Of a stretch of DNA of 36,735 bases, positions 26,641 through 35,364 are shown piece after piece. Source of the stretch: Janthinobacterium sp. (GTDB lineage Bacteria; Pseudomonadota; Gammaproteobacteria; Burkholderiales; Chitinibacteraceae). The position numbers were made by a program, and so were the translations under genes. Where the stretch lies: positions 1 through 36,735 of the forward strand of contig JANYCY010000097.1 in assembly GCA_025360045.1 (NCBI GenBank), written 5' to 3'. The notes below the pieces were generated by a model. The model was given only the letters and a program-made list of their open reading frames with translations, was not told where the DNA came from and searched no databases. Positions within the stretch are counted from its first letter, which is position 1. Each line of letters starts with the position of its first letter.

Positions 26641-28503
26641 TTAGATTTTCCAACGCTCACGAATACTTGCTTCTATCCCTGCCGCATCCAGCCCACATTC
26701 AGCCAATTGCACATTTTGATCTGCATGCTCCACATAGCGATCCGGAAAGCCGAGTTGTAATACTGGCTTGCACAAATCCTGAGCCATCAAGCTTTCTAAT
26801 ACCGCAGAGCCTGCTCCGCCCATAATGGCGCCTTCTTCAACCGTCACCAGATAATCATGGCTAGCCGCTAGCTCAGCAATCAAAGCACTATCGAGCGGTT
26901 TTACAAAACGCATATTGACGACCGTTGCGTTCAATGTGTTCCCTGCTTCTAAAGCAGCAGCCAGTACTGGGCCAAACGCCAAGATGGCGATCTTGCTGCC
27001 ACGGCGGCGCACTTCAGCACAGCCCATTGTAATCTCAGTCATCGTGCTTTGTACTTCAACTCCGGGTCCCGTGCCGCGAGGGTAGCGCACCGCGCTTGGG
27101 CCATCATGCAAGAATGCGGTATAGAGCATCTGCCGACATTCATTTTCGTCAGATGGCGTCAGCACCACCATATTGGGAATACAGCGCAGATAGGCAAGAT
27201 CAAATGATCCGGCATGCGTCGGGCCATCAGCCCCTACTTGCCCTGCACGATCAATCGCAAACATGACCGGTAAATTTTGCAAAGCGACATCATGAATCAG
27301 CTGATCATAAGCGCGTTGCAAAAAAGTAGAATAAATCGCCACCACGGGTTTTAAGCCTTCACAGGCCAAACCACCCGCGAAGGTCACCGCATGTTGCTCG
27401 GCAATGCCCACATCAAAATAGCGATCAGGGTGTTCTTGCTCAAAACGCACCAGCCCCGAGCCTTCACGCATGGCTGGGGTAATACCTAGCAGACGCTTAT
27501 CCATTTTGGCCATATCGCACAGCCAATCACCAAACACCTTGGTGTAGCTGACTTTAACGGCCTTCGCGCCTTGCATGCCGTCTTCTCTCTCAAACGGAGT
27601 GACCGCATGGTATTTCACCGGATCGGCAACGGCTTTTTTATAACCCTCGCCTTTGCGCGTCACCACATGCAAAAACTGCGGGCCTTTAAGCTGCTTAATA
27701 TTCGCTAACGTCGTCACTAGCGTATCTAAATCGTGGCCATCAATCGGGCCGATATAATTAAATCCAAACTGCTCGAACATCGTGCCGGGGGTCAGCAAGC
27801 CTTTAACGTGTTCTTCGCCTTTTTTGGCCAACTCTTTTAGAGGCGGCACCACATCCAGCACTCGGCCAGAGGCGCTGCGAATGCCGTTATAAAACTTGCT
27901 CGATAATAATTTAGACAGGTAATTAGTCAGAGCGCCCACATTTGGGGAGATCGACATTTCATTGTCGTTCAGCACCACCAGTAAATTCACATCCCGATGA
28001 CCCGCATTATTGAGTGCTTCAAATGCTTGACCTGCGGTCATCGCTCCATCGCCAATCACAGCAATCGCGTGGCGATCTTCGCCCTTAAGCTTAGCGGCTT
28101 CGGCAAAACCCAATGCAGCACCAATCGACGTGCTGGAATGCCCCACGCCAAAAGTGTCGTACTCGCTTTCTTCGCGCTTTGGAAAACCCGCAAGGCCATG
28201 CTGCTTACGCATGGTGTGCATTTGCCCACGACGACCGGTTAAGATTTTATGCGGGTAGCTTTGATGGCCCACATCCCAAACCAAGCGATCGTGCGGGGTA
28301 TCAAATACATAATGCAGCGCAACGGTTAGCTCGAGCGCGCCTAGATTAGAAGCAAAATGCCCACCGGTTTGGCTAACAGAATCCAGCAGATAGTTGCGCA
28401 ATTCATTGGCAAGCTGGGGCAAATCGGCTTTAGCCAATTTTTTAAGCTCCAGCGGACAAGACACCTTATCGAGCAGGGGATAACTCATATCGAGTTTCTT
28501 CAT
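26641..28503 (-). CDS. dxs: 1-deoxy-D-xylulose-5-phosphate synthase
   Basis: This 620-residue, thiamine-diphosphate-dependent enzyme makes 1-deoxyxylulose 5-phosphate from pyruvate and glyceraldehyde 3-phosphate, the first step of the MEP isoprenoid pathway. Visible markers are [16 protein letters not shown], the ThDP/metal motif [18 protein letters not shown] (151-168) followed by NDNEMSIS, the catalytic Glu in [15 protein letters not shown], and [20 protein letters not shown]. The length is normal. The start ATG shares one base with the ispA stop (TAATG), indicating translational coupling. It is the last gene of xseB-ispA-dxs, closed by a strong hairpin. Confidence 0.98.
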
Positions 28504-29396
28504 TAGTTAGTGCGTTCCACAATAAAATCGGCCAAGAGCACCAAACCACGGGCTTTTTCACCAAAAGGTGCAATCGCAAGCAGCGCATCCGCTTTCAACT
28601 CTGCCGCCTTTTGCTTAGCTGCCGCTAAGCCGAGCAATGAAACATAAGTGGGCTTGTTATTTGCGGCGTCTTTGCCCGCTGTTTTGCCCAAGGTGGCCGA
28701 ATCTGCCTCTTCATCCAAGACATCATCGACCACTTGAAACGCCAAACCGATACATTTGGCATAGTGATCTAAGCGAGCGCGATCTACATCACTCATGGCC
28801 ACGCCACAATAAGAGCCCAACAAGACCGCTGCACGAATCAAAGCACCGGTTTTTAAGCCATGCATTTGTTCTAGCTCAGGCAGGCTCAACGCTTGGCCCA
28901 CGCTGTAAAGATCGATCCCTTGGCCGCCACACATCCCTAAACTGCCTGATGCGCGAGCGAGGATATTCACCATTTTTAGCTGGTCGCTAGGATCATTGGC
29001 TAAGGTACAGGAAGTCAATATTTCAAATGCGGTAGTTTGCAATGCGTCCCCCGCCAATAATGCCGAAGCTTCACCAAAGGCAATATGACAAGTTGCCTTG
29101 CCACGACGCAACACATCGTTATCCATCGCAGGCATATCGTCGTGCACCAGCGAATAAGCATGGATCAGCTCTACCGCAGCAGCCACATATTGCAAACGCT
29201 CCGGCGAGGCATCAACCACTGCGCCCGCAGCAAACGCCAATAAAGGCCGCACCCGCTTGCCGCCATCCAAAACAGAATAGCGCATGGCAGTATGTAATTG
29301 AGCAGGAAGGTGATTGTCGCTTGGTAGCAGCGCCGCAAGCGTCTGTTCCATGCGATTCTGGACGTCTTGCATCCAGTTTTTAAATTCTAAGGTCAT
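28503..29396 (-). CDS. ispA: Farnesyl diphosphate synthase
   Basis: This 297-residue prenyltransferase condenses DMAPP/GPP with IPP to farnesyl diphosphate. Both aspartate-rich motifs are intact: the first, DDMPAMDND, at 86-94; the second, DDVLD, at 224-228. Also present are the substrate-binding GGKRVRP near residue 45, [22 protein letters not shown] and GLAFQVVDD. The length and the two residues between the Asp pairs in the first motif (bacterial type) fit IspA rather than a longer-chain synthase. It sits directly between xseB (abutting TAA-ATG) and dxs (one-base overlap), the common proteobacterial operon that supplies precursor and enzyme together. Confidence 0.97.
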
Positions 29397-29627: not shown

Positions 29628-29963
29628 GCGCTAAATATCCCGAATAAAGGCGCAAACTTTAATCCTCTGAGGCTATACAGTCAATATTCATCGGGCTTTT
29701 AGCAAGGCGCTGCTATTTTAAATGCCTGATTGCCGCACAATTAATTAACAATACAATCATGGCAGCGATGATTTAATTGATTCATGTGGATAAAGACAGT
29801 CATATTTTACTTACAAGTTTTATTATCCCCTCTATTTAAAACAAAATATCAAGCTCAACACCCGCAGTACCAGCACACGGCATGGCCCCTCATCGTGCAT
29901 AGCATCATTGATTGATTGCCTATTCAGGTTAAAATCAAGGACTATTCCCGATGGATACTCAGA
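29628..29963. other. 336-base divergent intergenic region
   Basis: No coding frame is evident. It separates the start of xseB from the divergent glycosyltransferase gene and so carries both promoters. It is AT-rich, with a perfect DnaA box (TGTGGATAA) at 29785-29793. No hairpin with a T-run was seen. Confidence 0.5.
29785..29793 (-). promoter_or_regulatory. Perfect DnaA-box consensus, minus strand
   Basis: TGTGGATAA is the reverse complement of TTATCCACA. It lies between the divergent xseB operon and the GT14 gene, about 160-180 bases from each start. Confidence 0.45.
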
Positions 29964-30815
29964 ATGCGTATTGGCTATTTAATCCTTTGCCACGCCCACC
30001 CTGCGCAATTAGGCCGGCTTTGCCAGCAAATTTCTGAAGAAAATACCCAGCTTTATATTCATGTTGACGCCAATACATCGGAGCATGAATTTAATGCCAT
30101 GAAAGCCGCCGCCCCCATAGATACACACTTTATCGAGCGGCAACGCTGCCGTTGGGGAGGATTTTCCTTGGTAAGTGCCAGCTTGGCCTTGATTCAGGCG
30201 GCGCTGAAAGACGATTGCGATTATATGGTTTTATTATCTGCACAAGATTTCCCGATTAAATCGCAGCAAGAAATCGTTACGCAATTACAAGGCACGGCTG
30301 GATTTATTGAGTATCGCCGCCAACCTGATCCTGCGTTTGATATTCGCTATCGCTACCAAAGCTATCACCCTGAATGGCTAAAAGGCAGCCTTGCAGGCAA
30401 GTTGCTACAAAAAATACAGCGCCCCATTCACAAACTTGGCTTATTCACGCGTAGCCTGCCCGCGCCATTAACCGCCATTTATTCTGGCTCTCAATGGTGG
30501 TGTTTATCCAAACGAGCCTGTGAAACATTGATTCATTTTTGTGAGCAAAATCCAAACATCATTACTTACTTTCGCCAAACTTTAGTGCCTGATGAAATGT
30601 TTGTACAAACCATCTTGATGCACACCCCAATCAAAGATGAGCTCATCAATAATTCACAGCATTATCTGGAATGGGAAACAGGGGCTTGGTCGCCTCGCAC
30701 TTTTGAGCTAAGCGATATCGAACGCTTACTGGCGAATCCTGCACTCTTTGCCAGAAAATTTTCGATTGATGGCCAAGTCACAACACAAATCAGCCAGCGT
30801 TTAAACCATATATAA
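29964..30815 (+). CDS. GT14-like (core-2/I-branching type) glycosyltransferase
   Basis: The 283-residue protein resembles bacterial members of glycosyltransferase family 14, relatives of beta-1,6-N-acetylglucosaminyltransferases and xylosyltransferases. Markers are IGYLILCHAHPAQLGRL at the start, RCRWGGFSLVSASLAL (WGG at 64-66), MVLLSAQDFPIKS (about 88-100), SGSQWWCLSK (174-183) and VPDEMFVQT with the conserved Asp-Glu (210-211), plus a C-terminal LFARKFS. No signal or membrane segment is seen, so it probably acts on the inner face of the membrane. ATG 29964 (GGA eight bases upstream) is preferred over TTG 29916. It is followed about 100 bases later by the GlmS-like gene on the same strand, which fits a glycan with an amino sugar. 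Donor and acceptor are unknown. Confidence 0.85.
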   Translation: MRIGYLILCHAHPAQLGRLCQQISEENTQLYIHVDANTSEHEFNAMKAAAPIDTHFIERQRCRWGGFSLVSASLALIQAALKDDCDYMVLLSAQDFPIKSQQEIVTQLQGTAGFIEYRRQPDPAFDIRYRYQSYHPEWLKGSLAGKLLQKIQRPIHKLGLFTRSLPAPLTAIYSGSQWWCLSKRACETLIHFCEQNPNIITYFRQTLVPDEMFVQTILMHTPIKDELINNSQHYLEWETGAWSPRTFELSDIERLLANPALFARKFSIDGQVTTQISQRLNHI

Positions 30816-30911: not shown

Positions 30912-32699
30912 ATGGGTGCTTTGATCGGAATCGTTTCTCAGAACAATGTTCTGAGCAATATTAATCAACAACTCGCCCCTCTGATTGAGCAAGGCCATTG
31001 CAGCGCAACCTTAATTAGCGATCAAGTCGATGCGCAAATTCTATCCTGCCCTATTCTCACCTTACACCGACATCTAAACGAGCAAACTGCACATCGGGTT
31101 TTAATCCGCTTAGATTGGGATAAGCCTAATAACAGTAGTGTGGCCAACTGCCGACAATTTATATCCGTGTGTTGTCGAGGCTTAATTGAAAATAGTGAAG
31201 CCTTGCAAGATAAATTGGCCATCTTGGGCTATTTAAACGAGCGAGTAAGCACCGCCCAACTTACCGCCGATTTAATTCACTGGCATTACCGCACTCAACA
31301 TGACTTATTAAAAGCGGTTCATTTAGCCGCCAGTGAAATCATTGGGGTTTATGCCTTAGGGGTGATCTCGACAGATCACCCTGATGAAATCATCTGCACC
31401 TCAAGGCAGATTCCACTCTTTATTGCACTTGGGGAAAGCTGTGCAGCTTTTTCTGATCAGCCACAAGTACTTCAAAGCATTGCCCCAGAAATGCACTGCT
31501 TGGCCCTCGGCGATACCGCAAAATTTAGCACTAAGGAATTCACCATCCTTGATCAGCAGGGCGAGCCCTGCCAAAGATTGGCAAGCGATATTCAGCAAGC
31601 CAGCATCAAGCTGCATGGCTTTCATCACTATATGCAAAAGGAAATCAAAGAGCAGGCCGCCATTTTTGCCGACATCCTTGATGACACCGGTTGCGATGCC
31701 AATTTGGCTCAGCTACTCAATAGCGATGCCGCACGGGTACTTTGCGATATCGAAGGCATTTCATTACTGGCCAGCGGTAGTAGTTATCACGCGGCACTGA
31801 TCGCTCGCTACTGGTTTGAAGCCTTAGCTGGCCTACCCTGCACAGTGGAATTAGCCAGTGAATATCGCTATCGCGATGCTGTTCAGCACCATAACACGCT
31901 GATTATTGCCATCTCCCAATCAGGGGAAACGGCCGACACCATTGCCGCACTGAAACATGCACAAAGCCAAAATCACGAACATACACTGGCCATCTCTAAT
32001 GCCTCCCCCAGCACCTTGATGCAATTGGCGCGTTTCCAGCTCTTTTTAGCTGCGGGGCCAGAAATTGGCATTACCTCAACCAAAACCTTTAGCACTCAAT
32101 TACTTGCCTTATATCGGCTAGCACTCAGTTTTGCAAAATTACGGGGTCATCTTGCTCCCGCAGCAGAAGCGGCTGCCTTTGATGACCTGCAGCGCCTACC
32201 TCGTGCGGCAAGCGAGCTAGATAGCATCACCGAGCAATTACAAGAATGGGCACACAAATTATATAATTGTAAGCATCTGTTTTTTGTTGGCCGACATCTT
32301 TATTACCCACTCGCCCAAGAAGCGGCTTTAAAGATGCAAGAAGTCGCTTATATCCATGCCTATGGCTTCCCTGCGGGTGAACTGATCCACGGGCCACTTA
32401 CATTAGTAAACAAAGACTTACCGGTCATCGCCTGCTTACCATGGAACCGCCTAACCGAAAAACTACTCGCTAATTTGCAAGAAGTCAGAGCACGAGGGGG
32501 CGAATTATTTATCTTATCGGATGCAGGGCTCGCCTCAAGCGATCACTTTAATGTGATTTGCATGAGCCACAATCTGCACGATTTAAACCCGGTGTTATAT
32601 GGCATTGGCTTACAAAAACTAGCCTATTTAACTGCCATATTACAGAATAACGACGTGGATACCCCAAGATTCCTAAGTAAATCAGTAATAAAATCTTAA
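30912..32699 (+). CDS. GlmS-like protein with a degenerate glutaminase domain
   Basis: The 595-residue protein aligns with glucosamine-6-phosphate synthase over its whole length, but only the isomerase half looks functional. GlmS begins MCGIVG, with Cys1 as glutaminase nucleophile; here it is MGALIGIV, without Cys. The RWATHG motif is absent, HNGIIEN has become CRGLIEN (Asn98 lost), and the TDTEV segment with Asp123 is gone. The two SIS domains are well kept: LASGSSYHAAL, SQSGETADT, GPEIGITSTKTFSTQL, and EAALKMQEVAYIHA holding Glu470, Lys474, Glu477 and His482, then HGP (His493) and the C-terminal Lys590 in SKSV. It could be an ammonia-dependent synthase, a deaminase or isomerase working on hexose phosphates, or a regulatory pseudoenzyme. 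A normal glmS should exist elsewhere. It sits behind the GT14 gene. Confidence 0.88.
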   Translation: MGALIGIVSQNNVLSNINQQLAPLIEQGHCSATLISDQVDAQILSCPILTLHRHLNEQTAHRVLIRLDWDKPNNSSVANCRQFISVCCRGLIENSEALQDKLAILGYLNERVSTAQLTADLIHWHYRTQHDLLKAVHLAASEIIGVYALGVISTDHPDEIICTSRQIPLFIALGESCAAFSDQPQVLQSIAPEMHCLALGDTAKFSTKEFTILDQQGEPCQRLASDIQQASIKLHGFHHYMQKEIKEQAAIFADILDDTGCDANLAQLLNSDAARVLCDIEGISLLASGSSYHAALIARYWFEALAGLPCTVELASEYRYRDAVQHHNTLIIAISQSGETADTIAALKHAQSQNHEHTLAISNASPSTLMQLARFQLFLAAGPEIGITSTKTFSTQLLALYRLALSFAKLRGHLAPAAEAAAFDDLQRLPRAASELDSITEQLQEWAHKLYNCKHLFFVGRHLYYPLAQEAALKMQEVAYIHAYGFPAGELIHGPLTLVNKDLPVIACLPWNRLTEKLLANLQEVRARGGELFILSDAGLASSDHFNVICMSHNLHDLNPVLYGIGLQKLAYLTAILQNNDVDTPRFLSKSVIKS

Positions 32700-34580: not shown

Positions 34581-34853
34581 TCAAGATTTACGCCGTTTAT
34601 TCATTACAAAACGAGCGATCTGCACCACGCCAAGCACAAGGGCAAGGTGCTTTTTTAGGCCTTCAGAGCGTAGCGCATATCCGGCTAATTTTAACCAACC
34701 TAAAACGCCGCCTTTAGGCTGACTCATCGCCAAGCCTTCTTGCAAGATATTCATCGGTTGCGAAAACGCGTTCAACTCTTGCCTCAACGCTTGCCGCTGC
34801 TGCTCGGCCTTCAGTTGTAGAAATTGCTTACGGTAGAAGCGTGCAAGTTTCAT
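34581..34853 (-). CDS. YqjK-like small membrane-associated protein
   Basis: The 90-residue protein is basic at both ends (MKLARFYRKQFLQLKAEQQR and VMNKRRKS) with one or two hydrophobic stretches (VLGWLKLAGYAL, LALVLGVVQIARFV). Size, position and gene order after DUF883 and holin-like genes match the YqjK member of the yqjD-yqjE-yqjK cluster, whose function is not established. A strong ribosome-binding site (AGGAGAAGGGAG) lies inside the end of the preceding frame, and start and stop overlap as ATGA. Its first 24 residues are nearly repeated in the preceding 41-residue frame, the result of a local duplication. It is the last gene of the operon. Confidence 0.75.
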   Translation of the reverse strand: MKLARFYRKQFLQLKAEQQRQALRQELNAFSQPMNILQEGLAMSQPKGGVLGWLKLAGYALRSEGLKKHLALVLGVVQIARFVMNKRRKS

Positions 34854-34880
34854 GCTCCCTTCTCCTGACTGACTGGCAAT
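34789..34880. repeat. Operon-internal direct repeat, left unit
   Basis: This 92-base stretch matches 34911-35002 without gaps at an offset of 122 bases, with roughly four fifths identity by eye. It spans the start of the YqjK-like gene and the tail of the 41-residue frame. Confidence 0.8.
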
Positions 34881-34975
34881 TTATCCAACGGCGGAGGAAA
34901 TATTTTTAAGGCTTGCCGCTGCTGCTCAGCCTTAAAATTTATAAATTGCTTACGGTAGAAGCGGGCGAGTTTCAT
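34850..34975 (-). CDS. 41-residue chimeric frame (YqjK-like start, holin-like end)
   Basis: The 41-residue frame begins MKLARFYRKQFINFKAEQQR, almost the start of the following YqjK-like protein, then ends in PVSQEKGA, which resembles the QAGQEEDA tail of the preceding holin-like protein. It overlaps both neighbours by ATGA. The simplest reading is a by-product of a tandem duplication covering the junction of the two genes; it may be translated but need not have a function. The frame is open further upstream to 35092, but that extension lies inside the holin-like gene in another frame and is not credible. Confidence 0.55.
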   Translation of the reverse strand: MKLARFYRKQFINFKAEQQRQALKIFPPPLDKLPVSQEKGA

Positions 34976-35002
34976 GCGTCCTCCTCCTGACCGGCTTGCA
35001 AT
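34911..35002. repeat. Operon-internal direct repeat, right unit
   Basis: Partner of 34789-34880. It spans the end of the holin-like gene and the start of the 41-residue frame, so the repeated unit covers a gene junction. Confidence 0.8.
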
Positions 35003-35364
35003 AAAGCTTTTCGGTCCCGTGCTAGCTCGGCACACGTTGCAGGAAATAAATCGGCAGCATGCCTGAGCCGATAACGCAAATAGGCAACGCATGCCAACGC
35101 AGCAGCACCATAAACCAAGGTTAAGCCCAGCGCGACCGCGATCCGATGGCTATCCCAAAAAATAATCAGTAGCAGTATTGCAGCGAGCGCTAAACACAAT
35201 CCCCCCAAGATGATGGCGATCACCCCTAAAATGAGATGGCCTAAAAAGCGCTGCAAAGCATCTTGCAGCTCTAAGCCAAACAACTCTAAGTGCGTGCCCG
35301 CCAAGCCGATGCCATGCGCTAAAATTCGCCGCACGCCTGTAAAAAAAGGAATTGAAGGTTTCAC
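34972..35364 (-). CDS. Phage holin family / YqjE-like inner-membrane protein
   Basis: The protein of about 130 residues has two strongly predicted membrane helices (HLILGVIAIILGGLCLALAA and VALGLTLVYGAAALACVAYL) in the layout of YqjE, the Holin_3-6 superfamily protein found beside DUF883 genes in proteobacteria. Despite the name, no phage is involved. No ATG gives a sensible start: the frame runs back to 35433 within the DUF883 gene. A GTG at 35364, two bases after the DUF883 stop, gives the start KPSIPFFTGVRRILAHGIGL, which I use. Its end overlaps the next frame by ATGA. It likely acts in the inner membrane together with the DUF883 protein. Confidence 0.78.
   Translation of the reverse strand: MKPSIPFFTGVRRILAHGIGLAGTHLELFGLELQDALQRFLGHLILGVIAIILGGLCLALAAILLLIIFWDSHRIAVALGLTLVYGAAALACVAYLRYRLRHAADLFPATCAELARDRKALLQAGQEEDA

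Follow-up and report, generated by a model that had tools for sequence, protein, structure and literature searches.

The window, the 36,735-nt stretch of DNA analysed here, carries a gene whose product is a GlmS paralogue with the full GlmS layout and a glutaminase half that, judging from its residues, is catalytically dead (Table 1). The whole GlmS architecture at 595 residues, as described in the first-pass annotation, was borne out, and with its relatives the gene almost certainly represents a real, selected and family-wide pseudo-glutaminase GlmS. The window corresponds to contig C72 in a 97-contig, 4.02 Mb assembly of a genome that belongs to the genus Iodobacter (g1), classified by NCBI in the Neisseriales, Chitinibacteraceae. 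Our search of the open-access literature, judged by titles and the starts of abstracts, returned no description of a Cys-less GlmS paralogue.

Table 1. Features of the window discussed in the text (positions in the window)
Feature	Position	Strand	Basis
dxs and ispA, divergent neighbours marking the orthologous locus family-wide	26641..29396	-	neighbour comparison; presumed gene names
GT14-type (Core-2/I-branching, PF02485) glycosyltransferase gene, 96 bp upstream of the paralogue	29916..30815	+	Pfam, neighbour comparison
Cys-less GlmS paralogue, whole gene, 595 aa	30912..32699	+	ORF, Pfam, NCBIfam, site alignment, tree
Class-II glutaminase (GATase) domain (residues 1-228), predicted to be dead, with a Q-loop that is shorter after Trp69	30912..31595	+	site table, dN/dS, pLDDT
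Isomerase half (residues 229-595) with two SIS domains and an intact sugar-phosphate site	31596..32696	+	Pfam SIS (two stretches), site table, Foldseek

The protein begins with MGALIGIV. Upstream of Met1 the frame is open for only three codons (598 aa in all), so that no alternative start brings back MCGIVG and a start that would supply Cys1 was ruled out. Pfam detected the two SIS domains and left the glutaminase domain undetected, and the NCBIfam glmS model TIGR01135 matched with 453.1 bits (cut-off 418.05) in an alignment that begins only at residue 79. The NagB-II model NF046059 gave 114 bits, below its cut-off of 430, and the window protein with its N-domain exceeds the SIS-only length (595 aa versus a model length of 330); the GlmD deaminase model NF041128 gave 71.5 bits, below its cut-off of 580.

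To locate the losses, the protein was aligned to E. coli GlmS, with residues numbered as in the mature E. coli enzyme and with site roles that we take to be those of the GlmS literature. In the glutaminase half, Cys1, Arg26, Arg73, Asn98 and Asp123 are replaced by Gly2, Gln27, Asp68, Arg89 and Thr114, respectively, and Thr76 and His77 are deleted, in agreement with the residue loss claimed earlier, while Trp74 (Trp69 in the window protein) and Gly99 (Gly90) are retained. The isomerase half retains Ser303 (Ser291), Ser347, Gln348 and Ser349 (335-337), Thr352 (Thr340), Ser401 (Ser389), Glu481 (Glu470), Lys485 (Lys474), Glu488 (Glu477), His493 (His482), His504 (His493) and Lys603 (Lys590). The last six are those that the first-pass annotation had listed as kept, all correctly, but it had overlooked Lys503, which is Ile492 here and Ile or Val in all seven Iodobacter copies. 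A set of 30 GlmS rows shares 63 invariant columns in the glutaminase half and 116 in the isomerase half; the window protein keeps 29% of the former and 70% of the latter, so a single domain bears most of the loss.

The same pattern recurs in the 42 full-length paralogues from the family. None of them retains Cys1, R26, T76, H77, N98 or D123, and R73 is present in nine, whereas S303, S347, Q348, S349, T352, K485, E488, H504 and K603 are retained in all 42, Glu481 in 40, and Ser401, His493 and Lys503 in 35 each. A substitute Ser/Thr nucleophile was ruled out, since the residue following Met1 is unconserved among the copies (Gly, Ser, Asn, Asp, Ala, Pro, Thr or Ile) and the remaining catalytic residues are gone. 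Of the 42 copies, 33 retain Trp74; the nine that have lost it belong to clade 1 and come from g6 and g11 (the clades are described below).

We sampled 43 Chitinibacteraceae genomes from 11 genera (g1-g11) and found at least one intact Cys-less paralogue in 33 genomes and eight genera: g1 (7/9), g2 (2/2), g4 (3/3), g6 (6/6), g7 (3/3), g8 (3/3), g10 (2/2) and g11 (7/7). An intact copy was not found in the four g3 genomes, the one g5 genome, the three g9 genomes and two Iodobacter genomes, G002, which holds only stop-containing remnants, and G004, in which no trace was found. The copies form two clades. Clade 1, to which the window protein belongs, comprises 27 full-length and four short copies; clade 2 (MPELIALIAPQNVLPA...) comprises 15 copies (L067-L070, L085-L088, L090 and L123-L128) from g6 (five of six genomes), g10 and g11, which lie at other loci than clade 1 and all have Trp at the Trp74 position. 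Outside the family sample, we searched 399 genomes of the order, 13 of them from this family, and 369 genomes of the class; both sets are samples and not all genomes. A clade-1 N-domain profile scored at least 250 bits in 11 of the 399 genomes, all from this family, and the next-best scores were at most 168 bits (19 such loci were inspected, all of them MCG-type GlmS). Among the 369 class genomes (E <= 1e-45) a high score was obtained only in the window's own genome, the other match, of 157 bits, being an MCGIVG GlmS. A clade-2 profile (E <= 1e-25) matched five of the 399 genomes of the order, all Chitinibacteraceae. Both Cys-less clades were thus confined to the Chitinibacteraceae in the samples searched.

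The dead glutaminase domain is under purifying selection, as the first-pass annotation had proposed from its retention. Among five Iodobacter copies, dN/dS was 0.075-0.141 in the dead domain (nine computable pairs of ten) and 0.042-0.079 in the isomerase half (ten pairs), although nine of the ten pairs have a synonymous distance above 1; the sole unsaturated pair (G000/G008, dS 0.28-0.29) gave 0.093 and 0.063, respectively. For comparison, GlmS from four Iodobacter genomes (six pairs) gave 0.010-0.074 in the glutaminase half and 0.011-0.055 in the isomerase half. Single pairs from g2, g4 and g8 reached 0.31-0.35 in the dead domain, still below 1. That the gene is a decaying pseudogene or a sequencing artefact, a view to which the remnants in G002 and the missing copy in G004 would lend themselves, is very improbable given intact copies in seven genomes of Iodobacter and in a further seven genera and dN/dS far below 1 in both halves; for the window copy itself these intact relatives and dN/dS values refute it. 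Since the Cys-less start is common to all these genomes, a sequencing error that would restore MCGIVG is not the case either.

An AlphaFold2 model of the window protein (47-row alignment) reached pLDDT 89 and pTM 0.92, with mean pLDDT per ten residues of 82-97 at residues 1-220 and 73-77 at residues 221-240; the last ten residues are the only longer stretch below 50. The dead domain is predicted to keep the GATase fold, as judged from the model and from Foldseek TM scores computed over the whole chain. The best full-length PDB matches were E. coli GlmS structures, including the C1A mutant 3ooj (TM 0.56-0.68, rmsd 6.8-21), values which indicate that the relative domain placement in the model differs from that of full-length E. 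coli GlmS; the isomerase-domain structures of E. coli GlmS (7dnr, 1mos, 1moq and 2vf4) matched with target-normalised TM of 0.91-0.94.

The paralogue lineage has a single origin on the tree. In a tree of the isomerase half, 46 paralogue rows are split from 30 GlmS rows by a 100/100 branch. In a second tree, with a NagB-II type outgroup, 19 sampled paralogues form one clade (97/100) among the GlmS of the order and group with GlmS, not with the three NagB-II type proteins; the base of this tree is poorly resolved, and the outgroup does not fall on one side of a branch because one very long AgaS row strayed. There, the clade-1 copies of g6 and g11 are the sister group of clade 2 (97/94), which therefore looks like a later duplication. 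The g8 paralogue clusters with its g2, g4 and g7 counterparts (99/95), and g8 dxs does likewise, whereas g8 GlmS groups with g9 and g1, apart from g2, g4 and g7 (100/100). The paralogue and GlmS therefore lack one shared history, and the position of g8 GlmS suggests that this essential enzyme was replaced in g8. The true GlmS proteins of the family fall into well separated lineages (L107-L131 and L137 versus L002 and L103-L106).

In four g11 genomes (G051, G052, G053 and G049), each a different species, the clade-1 gene at the same locus lacks the entire N-domain and encodes only 351-368 aa (L080, L081, L082 and L083, respectively). A tblastn search with one g11 N-domain found no N-domain remnant of these copies, which also carry five changes in the isomerase site (S347A, Q348E, T352A, S401A and E488A) and are still constrained (dN/dS 0.15-0.18 in the three pairs tested). 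All four genomes additionally carry a clade-2 copy. In that branch the short protein probably serves for binding or as a partner, and its residues suggest that it is not catalytic. Either this counts against an exclusively catalytic function across the lineage, or the role changed a second time here.

This bears on whether the paralogue could be a regulatory pseudo-subunit that forms a hetero-oligomer with true GlmS and tunes flux into UDP-GlcNAc, as the first-pass annotation had considered. GlmS isomerase halves dimerise, and the paralogue retains that half, with both domains under selection; in favour of such a role, too, the short form is still constrained although it lacks the glutaminase domain and key isomerase residues. 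A precedent is the AdoMetDC prozyme of Trypanosoma, a dead paralogue that works with its active partner in the same cell (PMC6221367). Unlike the prozyme, the GlmS paralogue has one of its two active sites seemingly intact. Nine isomerase-site residues invariant in 42 of 42 full-length copies would be needless in a pure regulator, and the different histories of g8 GlmS and the g8 paralogue, with a GlmS of another lineage than in near relatives, somewhat weaken the claim without refuting it. We regard a regulatory subunit as unlikely.

The wider gene content of the window's genome shows that the paralogue is not its only GlmS. A search for a canonical glmS in the same genome, which the first-pass annotation had called for, found one on contig C55 (605 aa, with MCGIVG, RWATHG and HNGIIEN), so the paralogue is not the sole GlmS, and contig C69 encodes a NagB over the TIGR00502 cut-off. 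GlcN-6-P synthesis and deamination therefore each have an ordinary enzyme, and with NagB present the paralogue fills no obvious pathway gap. A deaminase replacing a missing NagB was ruled out, as TIGR00502 is over its cut-off in 40 of the 43 family genomes, the window's included; NF046059 (NagB-II) is over its cut-off in none of the 43, yet also in none of 14 control genomes. The earlier interpretation thus held as to a GlmS paralogue with a dead, selected domain beside a separate canonical GlmS, while, of the roles it offered, deamination is unneeded as a stand-in for a missing NagB step; ammonia-driven synthesis or deamination is the role favoured below as the likeliest. In g6, g10 and g11, NagB is over the cut-off but TIGR00221-type NagA has no match better than E ~1e-5, a set that nearly coincides with the carriers of the clade-2 paralogue. 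Elsewhere in the window's genome (L007, 910-3350, minus strand), an AgaS-like SIS protein adjoins a tagatose-bisphosphate aldolase-like subunit, a pair which presumably belongs to a galactosamine pathway.

The clade-1 locus is conserved, with dxs at most 3.5 kb away in 31 of 31 copies. Distances to dxs were taken from gene positions and not from the length-greedy neighbour clustering, which took an antisense ORF instead of the paralogue at 6 of 39 paralogue-bearing loci (L058, L059, L063, L068, L072 and L073). The recurrent neighbours identified were dxs, ispA, the GT14 gene, a chemotaxis protein and a cytochrome c, with no sugar operon; in four g6 genomes the clade-2 gene adjoins a photolyase-type gene. 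In g10 the GT14 gene lies near a clade-2 gene, whereas it adjoins the clade-1 gene throughout Iodobacter and g11 and in one g6 genome. It occurs in 33 of the 43 genomes (in G004 only as a broken copy), but its carriers include every genome of the paralogue-less g3, g5 and g9, and g2, g4 and all but one of the six g6 genomes have the paralogue without it; an obligate partnership was ruled out on this distribution, and the glycosyltransferase is probably not an obligate partner. No promoter was predicted between the GT14 gene and the paralogue; over the full region the predicted promoter sites number four, below the shuffle mean of 7.0. The G004 assembly breaks both dxs and the GT14 gene, each into two frames (L176 and L200); these breaks may be assembly errors because dxs is usually essential.

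The Chitinibacteraceae are a largely chitin-degrading family, and we counted GH18 chitinases (E <= 1e-20) in its genomes. The ten genomes without an intact paralogue have 0-4 versus 3-20 in the 33 with one, the window's own genome having three (Mann-Whitney p = 1.2e-5, a test that ignores relatedness). Independent pairs supporting the association number three (four on all branches), and the opposite direction was never seen at four thresholds; with only three to four independent losses the link cannot reach 0.05 once relatedness is counted. Two of the losses lie inside Iodobacter, where the counts are 3 and 4 versus 3-5. The association between paralogue and chitinases is suggestive only.

We tentatively favour a neofunctionalised, glutamine-independent hexose(amine)-6-phosphate enzyme in which the dead domain may be kept as a scaffold or lid. 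We infer its activity, direction, substrate and lid role as follows. Glutamine hydrolysis would have been lost once, early in the Chitinibacteraceae, in a GlmS paralogue. The isomerase half would bind a sugar-6-phosphate, with ring opening by the His504 equivalent, a Schiff base formed via the Lys603 equivalent and proton transfer via the Glu488 equivalent. With the internal ammonia source absent, the paralogue would either exchange free ammonia (fructose-6-P + NH3 <-> glucosamine-6-P) or simply isomerise, deamination being likelier than synthesis in chitin feeders, and the dead N-domain would serve as a structural lid shaping the active site. The channelling of ammonia from one active site to another has its textbook example in the glutamine amidotransferases. 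In GlmS, Trp74 is the gate of the ammonia channel (as described in PMC7000685 and PMC7948480), and its retention amid lost catalytic residues fits a lid role, in an alignment that is not certain in the shortened loop. Residue 404 is Ala in 30 of 30 GlmS rows and Ser or Thr in 42 of 42 paralogues, as well as Ser in all three NagB-II type proteins and in the window genome's own AgaS-like protein. This shift is a hint of glutaminase-free chemistry, not proof of it, and could be drift in the stem lineage.

The change at 404 has also to be weighed as a sign of a new substrate, that is, of activity as an isomerase, deaminase or deglycase on a different aminosugar or sugar phosphate, with a specificity that shifted near 400-404 and, in Iodobacter, at 503. 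The GlmS-invariant positions that differ in 90% or more of the 42 paralogues, both clades pooled, include 297, 400, 404, 489 and 579, and Lys503 is Ile or Val throughout the Iodobacter copies, but the phosphate- and sugar-binding residues are unchanged and the recurrent neighbours make no sugar operon, and we consider such a shift doubtful. A plain phosphoglucose-isomerase-like enzyme (Fru-6-P <-> Glc-6-P) that has lost amine chemistry is quite improbable: organisms normally possess a dedicated Pgi, and it is difficult to see why a second, slow one would be selected for, even if human GFAT2 does such isomerisation of Fru-6-P without glutamine (PMC7948480).

The glutamine-independent enzyme draws support from the invariant isomerase site, the single clade, the selection on the dead domain, the shift at 404, Trp74, the GFAT2 example and the GH18 counts. 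It is weakened because NagB-I and GlmS are already present, E. coli GlmS is not known to use free ammonia well, the NagB-II model scores 114 versus 430 bits, and Trp74 is missing from clade 1 of g6 and g11. A bolder version, possible but rather unlikely, is that of an undescribed pseudo-glutaminase GlmS lineage that, with an obligatory lid, would use free ammonia for hexosamine-6-phosphate chemistry or run that chemistry backwards, the family preserving a series from live glutaminase to dead domain, lost domain and lost second active site. If true, the series would show an amidotransferase becoming a sugar-phosphate enzyme and then a binding protein within one family.

Compared with known systems, the paralogue resembles GlmS (TIGR01135) in its two-domain length, score over the curated cut-off, intact isomerase site and predicted fold, and differs in lacking the nucleophile and glutamine-binding residues, in the shortened Q-loop of clade 1 and in forming a separate clade. 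An automatic TIGR01135 call would consequently label it a glutamine-dependent GlmS despite the loss of the glutamine-cleaving residues. With NagB-II (NF046059) it shares an SIS isomerase fold without a working glutaminase and Ser/Thr at the Ala404 position; unlike NagB-II it has the 228-residue N-domain and the GlmS motif SQSGETADT, and it groups with GlmS. Beta-lactam synthetase, compared with asparagine synthetase B, has a class-II glutaminase domain without Cys1 that is structural and stands beside a working second domain, but its synthetase domain is unrelated and its chemistry another. Human GFAT2 (PMC7948480) resembles the proposed enzyme in using Fru-6-P without glutamine and differs in that its glutaminase works. 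Because this GlmS is inherited vertically and under selection while its glutaminase is dead, it amounts to a natural experiment: why does a domain that supplies no ammonia persist, and can a GlmS-type site work on free ammonia or in reverse?

Downstream of the paralogue, two adjoining small ORFs (34581-35092, minus strand) share a 95-bp direct repeat, 84% identical between 34786-34880 and 34908-35002, and the pair (34786-35002) is a partial tandem duplication.
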